A stretch of DNA of 64,000 nt, taken from positions 1 to 64,000 of the forward strand of contig JAJFJT010000036.1 of assembly GCA_021773795.1 (NCBI GenBank), written 5' to 3'. Shown piece after piece: positions 1,843 through 57,651 of this stretch; the first letter of the stretch is position 1; every line of letters starts with the position of its first letter. Below the pieces are notes generated by a model. That model saw only the letters and a list, made by a program, of their open reading frames with translations, did no database searches and was not told the origin of the DNA. Source of the stretch: Gammaproteobacteria bacterium. GTDB lineage: Bacteria > Pseudomonadota > Gammaproteobacteria > HK1. A program made the translations under genes and the position numbers.

Positions 1843-1985
1843 AGGGCACCTCTAAAAACACAATATTCGTCGCAATACAGCGTTTCTCGCAAAAAAGTTT
1901 CGCTCACCTATCAAACGTAGGCTGCGCTCAACTTTTTCACTCATGCCTTGTCTTGCATGGAAACTTGAATTTTTAGAGGCACCCT
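1843..1985 (-). repeat. Palindromic miniature repeat, family 1, copy 1
   Basis: About 143 bp bounded by inverted ends AGGGCACCTCTAAAAA and TTTTTAGAGGCACCCT. It lies in the opposite orientation to the other four copies at 16378, 24842, 43997 and 49762. It separates the exporter ATPase stop (1994) from the permease start (1841), so it was inserted inside this operon. It encodes no transposase and reads as a MITE-like element. Confidence 0.9.
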
Positions 1986-16377: not shown

Positions 16378-16518
16378 AGGGTACCTCTAAAAATTCAAGT
16401 TTCCAGACAAGACAAGGCATGTTAAAAAAGTTGCGCGCGGCATATGGTTGATATGTAAGCGAAACTTTTTTTCGAGAAACGCCATATTGCGACGATAGTA
16501 TATTTTTAGCGGTGCCCT
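16378..16518 (+). repeat. Palindromic miniature repeat, family 1, copy 2
   Basis: 141 bp with ends AGGGTACCTCTAAAAA and (imperfect) TTTTTAGCGGTGCCCT. It begins only 11 bp upstream of the glnA -24 element, so it occupies the place where enhancer-bound NtrC would normally sit or loop across. Confidence 0.9.
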
Positions 16519-24414: not shown

Positions 24415-24567
24415 CCCACGTGGCGCTAACATTTAAACTGTAGATCTTCCGGCCAACAGCCTACATTTGCCCAGCCTTTTCCTGACCCCGGAGGTCGGGA
24501 CCATTGCGATAGGGTCAGGGGGTGGGAAATTGGATTCCCGCGTTTGACATCACGCAAGGAGGCCTTC

Positions 24568-24837
24568 ATGTCAAAGCTCAGATCTCTGGGGCTCGCATTC
24601 GCCCTGCTCTTTCTCTGCAGTCACGCTACCCTCGCCGCAGAACCCGTAGATATCAACAGTGCTGACGCCAAAACCCTGGCCACGGCAATCTCTGGAGTAG
24701 GTATCAAACGGGCCGAGGCAATCATCGCCTACCGTAGTCAACACGGCCCATTTCAATCCGTAGATGGGCTAAGTCAGGTCAAAGGTATTGGCAAAAAAAC
24801 CGTGGAGAAAAGTCGCGCAAAACTGGCGGCCAAGTAA
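24568..24837 (+). CDS. ComEA-like helix-hairpin-helix DNA-binding protein
   Basis: An 89-residue exported protein: signal peptide cleaving after TLAAEP, then two helix-hairpin-helix motifs (INSADAKTLATAISGVGIKRAEAI and LSQVKGIGKKTVEK). Such short ComEA proteins bind incoming DNA in the periplasm during competence in other gammaproteobacteria. AAGGAGG lies five bases before the ATG at 24568. No other competence gene is in the window. Confidence 0.85.
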   Translation: MSKLRSLGLAFALLFLCSHATLAAEPVDINSADAKTLATAISGVGIKRAEAIIAYRSQHGPFQSVDGLSQVKGIGKKTVEKSRAKLAAK

Positions 24838-24841
24838 CTAT

Positions 24842-24983
24842 AGGGTGCCTCTGGAGATTCAAGGTTCGAAGCAAGACAGGGCATAAGTATAAAAGTTGAG
24901 CGCAGCATATGGTTGATATGTAAGCGTAACTTTTTTGCGAAAAATGTCGCATTGCGACGATCGTGTATTTTTAGAGGCGCCCT
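24842..24983 (+). repeat. Palindromic miniature repeat, family 1, copy 3
   Basis: 142 bp between the ends of convergent comEA-like and murU. It is the most diverged copy: the left end reads AGGGTGCCTCTGGAGATTC and the right end TTTTTAGAGGCGCCCT. The core GTTGAGCGCAGCATATG is unchanged. Confidence 0.88.
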
Positions 24984-43996: not shown

Positions 43997-44136
43997 AGGG
44001 CGCCTCTAAAAATTCAAGTTCCCAGGCCAGACAAGACATGTTAAAAAAGTTGAGCGCAGCCTATGTTTGATATGCGAGCGAACTATTTTGCGAGAAACGC
44101 AGTATTGCGACGATAGTGTGTTTTTAGAGGTGCCCT
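43997..44136 (+). repeat. Palindromic miniature repeat, family 1, copy 4
   Basis: 140 bp, ends AGGGCGCCTCTAAAAA and TTTTTAGAGGTGCCCT, 15 bp upstream of the def start. The inner arms GTTAAAAAAGTTGAGCGCAG and GAGCGAACTATTTTGC show the same layout as other copies with several substitutions. Confidence 0.9.
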
Positions 44137-49727: not shown

Positions 49728-49761
49728 TGTTATTCTCCTCAGTTATGCGGTTTCCGGTGAC

Positions 49762-49903
49762 AGGGTACTTCTAAAAACTCAAGTTTCCAGGCAAGACAAG
49801 GCATGTTAAAAAAGTTGAGTGCAGCATATGTTTGATATGTAAGCGAAACTTTTTTGCGAGAAACGCCGTATTGCGACGAAAATGGTATTTTTAGAGGTGC
49901 CCT
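49762..49903 (+). repeat. Palindromic miniature repeat, family 1, copy 5
   Basis: 142 bp with ends AGGGTACTTCTAAAAA and TTTTTAGAGGTGCCCT. The inner arms AAAAAAGTT and AACTTTTTT flank GCATATGTTTGATATG, so a transcript would fold into one long hairpin. Lies 38 bp upstream of the bioA start. Confidence 0.9.
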
Positions 49904-49941
49904 ACAGCATACCTGCGGGCTGACAAAGGGCAATAATCAGG

Positions 49942-57368: not shown

Positions 57369-57651
57369 CCGCACCCAGGGATATCGATAAACACGGGAAC
57401 TTTGCCCAACAGCGGCCCTCTAACTCAGCGAGTGCCACCCCCATGGCGTTCCCCGTCCTCCCTCCCTGGACGGGAGCCCCGCCCGACACCCCAGTCGGGC
57501 AATTCCTCACCCCGGGCATCGCCTGTCCCCTGATAGGCGACCCGGGGTTTTTTTTGGCTAGGCACTTTGGTTGACCACCTTGGCAAACTGCGATTAAATA
57601 CCTCGCTTGCCCAGCCCACTACTCGCCACCCAGGAACAGGAGATCCACCAA
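57369..57651. other. Intergenic stretch with terminator
   Basis: No gene in about 280 bp. It contains GGGCGGGG-type repeats in the first half, the terminator at 57509-57555, and presumably the cytochrome promoter after it. Confidence 0.6.
57509..57555 (+). terminator. Strong rho-independent terminator
   Basis: A long stem ACCCCGGG-CA-TCGCCT pairs with AGGCGA-CCCGGGGT around a ten-base loop, followed by a run of eight T. It insulates the M48 protease from the cytochrome genes. Confidence 0.92.

Follow-up and report, generated by a model that had tools for sequence, protein, structure and literature searches.

A 141 bp interspersed repeat of a gammaproteobacterial genome with the probable character of an IS5-family MITE

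Five copies of a palindromic repeat approximately 141 bp in length are found in the window, the 64 kb stretch of gammaproteobacterial DNA that was analysed, and these very probably belong to a family of non-autonomous IS5-family transposable elements, or Miniature Inverted-repeat Transposable Elements (MITEs). About 49 copies are present in the whole genome; most are flanked by 4 bp target site duplications, some occupy sites that are empty in congeners, and their 15 bp ends match those of IS5-family elements in other bacteria.

Anatomy and copy number of the repeat

The copies in the window align over their full length, and a profile built from genomic copies recovered exactly five when searched across it, the number originally predicted. 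The studied copy, at 49763..49902 on the + strand, is flanked by a divergent 69 aa open reading frame (ORF), starting at ~49727, and a bioA-like class-III aminotransferase gene (49942). The others are at 1844..1984 (- strand), with ABC transporter ATPase and ABC-2 permease genes on either side in tandem; at 16379..16517 (+), where its neighbours are genes for cation efflux and glutamine synthetase; at 24843..24982 (+), directly after a 97 aa ORF (24544-24837) and followed by a convergent nucleotidyltransferase gene; and at 43998..44135 (+), within a divergent pair of yebC-like and peptide deformylase genes, an insertion also found in the congener G001. The predicted coordinates had been correct to within 1-2 bases.

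A typical copy is 138-141 bp long and, as had been anticipated for all of those in the window, encodes no protein. The family is delimited by 15 bp inverted ends, GGGYRCCTCTAAAAA...TTTTTAGAGGTGCCC; these had been described as 16 bases long, and while their inverted arrangement stands, their length and form required revision, the outer A being part of the target duplication in some copies. In the studied copy, the left terminal inverted repeat is GGGTACTTCTAAAAA (49763..49777, + strand) and the right, read on the - strand, is GGGCACCTCTAAAAA (49888..49902). Both of the internal features proposed from the window, an inner inverted repeat and a CATATG-N4-ATATG core, are present, in the order AAAAAAGTT / CATATG-N4-ATATG / AACTTTTTT. 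The corresponding arms of the studied copy (49808..49816 and 49847..49855, both +), the pairing of which is retained across the family through double changes, enclose the central palindrome core CATATG-TTTG-ATATG (49825..49839, +). No Rfam family covered any of the copies in an Rfam search. Elsewhere in the window, positions 57450-57555 (+) match anti-hemB RNA (RF02837), a family described from Burkholderia, with 50.2 bits relative to a gathering score of 49.5.

The genome, a 2.56 Mb draft in 36 contigs, was surveyed through end-motif searches combined with profile searches of the regions fetched around each match. Besides 47 copies of near full length, the profile searches identified two truncated ones, hence about 49 instead of the 'hundreds per genome' first extrapolated; the genome-wide density is approximately one copy per ~52 kb, such that the window is richer than average. 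The end motif had 97 matches in this genome, compared with four for a reversed control pattern, indicating that the repeat is no chance pattern. Pairwise identity among the genomic copies has a mean of 87%, in agreement with the suggestion that they are old rather than the products of recent duplication, and the description of the repeat as MITE-like, palindromic, non-coding and without a transposase nearby is likewise supported.

Target sites and transposases with the same ends

Once element ends were set at GGG...CCC, the 4 bp on either side were identical in 30 of the 47 near full length copies and matched at three or more of the four bases in 37. The studied copy is one of the imperfect cases, its left flank GACA (49759..49762) being a single base different from the TACA on its right (49903..49906). 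Among copies with complete ends, the duplication was 4 bp long in 28, 3 bp in one and 2 bp in two, with none of 5-9 bp. Targets are A/T-rich, such as TTTA, ATAA, TAAA and TTAT. The original prediction favoured an IS630/Tc1-type transposase generating TA duplications, and these A/T-rich targets, often with TA inside them, do have that flavour. Nevertheless, an IS630/Tc1-type MITE inserting at TA can be given almost no credence, as duplications of 4 bp, present in 28 copies, far outnumber those of 2 bp, present in two; TA is not obligatory (TCAT, TGGA, GGAA, ATTG and TTCA are all used); and the transposases found with matching ends are of the IS5 family.

Sites corresponding to two of the copies in the window are empty in related genomes, which shows these copies to be real insertions. 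When the flanks of the copy at 1844 are joined with one copy of the target, they match uninterrupted sequence in the congeners G001 and G002 over 800 of 800 positions at 84% identity. The site of the copy at 49763 is uninterrupted in G002, and the junction is also empty in G001, where unrelated extra sequence is found ~30 bp away. An inverted pair of copies on contig C22 (at 26341 and 27005) was considered as a potential compound transposon; this was rejected since each copy has its own duplication, and the pair therefore represents two separate insertions. At another locus (contig C13, 113303-113442), a copy with an ATGA target lies 2 and 4 bp from the neighbouring genes; an overlap of stop and start codons may have been restored there by the duplication.

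Ends matching those of the family over 15 bp delimit IS5-family elements of ~1.3 kb, encoding DDE transposases of the IS5_4 type, in Sulfurimonas, Nitrotoga and others. A 1300 bp Sulfurimonas element (L131, 91-1390) has the family's ends, an ATTA/ATTA duplication and a 344 aa transposase with the Pfam domains DDE_Tnp_1 (86.5 bits) and DUF772, which scores 247 bits on the NCBIfam IS5 model NF033581 (IS5_4; cut-off 140). Further elements with GGGYRCCTCTAAAAA-type ends around IS5_4/DDE_Tnp_1 transposases include L150 and L218/L225, and a search seeded with L131 extended the set to relatives, with ends of this kind, in the genomes of Nitrotoga, Nitrosomonadales, Nitrosomonas and Sulfurovum. A complete genome from another family, G354, contains relatives of the MITE, at 78-80% identity, alongside numerous IS5 copies with ends of the form GGGCATCTCTAAAAA; one of these IS5 copies (L225) is flanked by TTAT/TTAT. 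The best-preserved IS5 elements with these ends, L131 and L225, thus carry 4 bp duplications; the flanks of other IS5 copies mismatch, as expected for old copies. Around ten nearly identical IS5 copies in G354 (loci L218-L237) share the same division of the transposase between two frames, which suggests programmed frameshifting. In Nitrotoga BS, an element of ~640 bp (L172) that is flanked by TTAA/TTAA and contains a partial transposase match looks like a deletion derivative.

Mobilization by an IS1182- or other DDE-family transposase that generates 4 bp duplications, rather than by one of the IS5 family, has precedent in IS1182-derived MITEs with 4 bp repeats (PMC3852290), and the IS1182 model gives the L131 transposase a score too. 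At 106, this is far below the cut-off of 270, where the IS5_4 score of 247 exceeds its own cut-off of 140, and the transposases found between such ends, in searches employing IS5_4-like queries only, are of the IS5_4 type, making a source outside IS5 highly improbable.

The resemblance to the IS5 copies examined is confined to the terminal 15-21 bp. The inner ~110 bp had no clear match to any IS examined, and attempts to find the parent through similarity of the inner sequence returned just a weak, marginal sub-terminal resemblance; derivation of the interior from a parent is not obligatory for a MITE, and the parent may lie outside the elements sampled. Nor is a parent in the same genome obligatory, and none was found here: transposases of the L131 type had no match at E<=1e-5 in the genome or in G001. 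Two sets of candidates for the cognate helper were rejected, an IS5_4 remnant on contig C30 owing to its ends being of the CATGGACCAA type and the remaining DDE_Tnp_1 matches in this genome owing to their being without the family's ends. The absence of matching ends near the edges of the 36 contigs makes it less likely that an IS present in several copies was missed between them, although the draft state of the assembly leaves room for a helper present only once. The copies in this genome therefore look orphaned.

Gene setting and evolution of the palindrome

All 49 copies are intergenic, as judged by a simple codon-usage gene finder: 15 lie between tandem genes in the same direction, 17 between tandem genes in the opposite direction, eight between convergent and nine between divergent genes. 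There is no bias in orientation relative to genes (15 tandem+ vs 17 tandem-). Insertion followed by loss from genes would give such an even, intergenic distribution; a terminator or 3'-end element would not.

The repeat might instead be a REP/BIME-like element, or one affecting termination or mRNA stability, that is kept for its RNA function at gene ends. It forms a stable hairpin, consistently stronger on one strand (47/47 copies; means of -48.6 vs -36.1 kcal/mol), and compensatory changes across hosts affect 10 of 32 pairs, exceeding the 4.4 in shuffles and the 1-4 in slid controls, with counts inflated by the relatedness of the alignment rows. The strand difference itself arises from widely shared variants that form G-U pairs on the stronger strand. 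By contrast, rare changes in pairs, those present in no more than four copies, are balanced between G-U and A-C (39 vs 41), such that the excess of G-U stems from founder-like variants and no present RNA constraint is seen. Terminator-like hits were absent from the two copies scanned. Given also the even direction relative to genes and the existence of transposition hallmarks, retention as an RNA element is very unlikely, and a present RNA function for the palindrome is not supported.

The double changes include the replacement of G-C by T-A in the inner stem, and a paired change from A-T to C-G in the core is found in nine copies of this genome; the inner palindrome in which paired changes occur lies outside the ends shared with IS5 elements. 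Template-switch correction of imperfect palindromes can yield paired changes without selection. The pattern can therefore reflect either such correction or selection on the folded form of active copies. That the hairpin itself is needed, with MITEs spreading through, or being selected for, a folded intermediate (single-stranded or cruciform) or an RNA made by active copies, seems doubtful in view of the template-switch alternative and the inflation of counts by relatedness.

Relatives, history and known counterparts

A search of public genomes with a pattern comprising the end and a few further bases found many elements of 141, 161 and 178-181 bp, in Nitrotoga, Gallionellaceae, other Nitrosomonadales, Gammaproteobacteria, Clostridia and others, with exact 4 bp duplications at 56 of 78. 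The 141 bp form of Candidatus Nitrotoga, Nitrosomonadales and Gallionellaceae, abundant in Nitrotoga and its relatives, is ~89% identical to the present repeat over its full length. The 178-181 bp variant (L058, L081, L095 and others in Nitrotoga) is alike on its left side and has ~40 additional bases near its right end. A 161 bp repeat of Clostridia and Ruminococcaceae (L064, L067, L100, L132 and L137), the hosts of which include a metagenome-assembled genome from goat omasum, has the same 15 bp ends and an unrelated interior. No match to the MITE was found in plasmid and phage records; a single putative viral contig (IMGVR_UViG_2675903045_000001, 5067-5087; L204) contains the end motif.

In a phylogenetic tree, the copies of this genus all group together in a single clade (support 100/99) beside those of Nitrotoga, with a star-like and poorly resolved interior. 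Among 38 relatives, the MITE was matched in this genome and G001 only, and in a class-wide sample six of 369 genomes had any match, three of them through stretches of 24-31 bp only. Two of the three copies in G001 share sites and similar flanks with copies in this genome (that at 43998 in the window, and L016), indicating that some insertions are older than the species split. The most economical account of this history is that the family entered once and then multiplied in a burst.

We infer mobilization in trans, arrival of the founder from a different lineage, purging from genes and later loss of the helper; the direction of the founder's transfer is equally presumptive. An IS5-type DDE transposase would have recognised the GGGYRCCTCTAAAAA ends and inserted the 141 bp unit into A/T-rich 4 bp targets, duplicating them. 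A founder related to the Nitrotoga elements would thereby have reached about 50 sites in this genus, with gene-internal copies lost or avoided, and the matching transposase would either have been lost subsequently or have been present only temporarily, leaving the copies to diverge in place.

The family hence offers some 50 cleanly delimited MITE insertions that seem to be orphaned and have vacant counterparts in sister species. It also shows that two distinct bacterial lineages can harbour one MITE family at ~89% identity, and that the matching IS5 ends extend to further lineages. It should be of use in genome annotation and in testing the survival of MITEs beyond their helper, while leaving the concept of a MITE unchanged.

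Correia/NEMIS and ERIC/RUP-type repeats are also short, palindromic, intergenic and able to form RNA hairpins, but their ends and target duplications differ from those of the present family, from which they are set apart by description. The closest counterpart is MITEPsy1 of Pseudomonas syringae pv. phaseolicola, a 100 nt non-coding unit with 18 nt ends (GG......TCTGAAAAA) that generates 4 bp duplications of CTAG or YTAA; it has six copies, two of which are inside genes, has been shown to move, and is thought to derive from the IS5-family element ISPsy2, a helper in the same genome (PMC3189936). The two resemble each other in architecture, form of the ends, 4 bp duplication and IS5-type helper; the present family differs in having another sequence, about 49 copies that are all intergenic and a helper that was not found. 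IS5 MITEs of 140-252 bp have been described from archaea, and include the 140 bp MITE of ISMma12 in Methanosarcina acetivorans, with 16 bp ends, 24 copies and an IS5 helper (PMC3852290). Compared by description only, this is similar in its ~140 bp length, 16 bp ends, tens of copies and IS5-type helper, and differs in its archaeal host and listed direct repeat of 3 bp.

The 141 bp elements of Nitrotoga, Nitrosomonadales and Gallionellaceae have the same ends and 4 bp duplications, and some of their hosts carry IS5 elements with the ends of the MITE; they are distinguished by consistent differences in the inner stem, with T-A where G-C is found here, and by the 180 bp variant. No report of a MITE was found in the literature on Nitrotoga and Gallionella. 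As far as the literature searched shows, the sequence of the family is new, and its kind is that of the well-known IS5-derived MITE.
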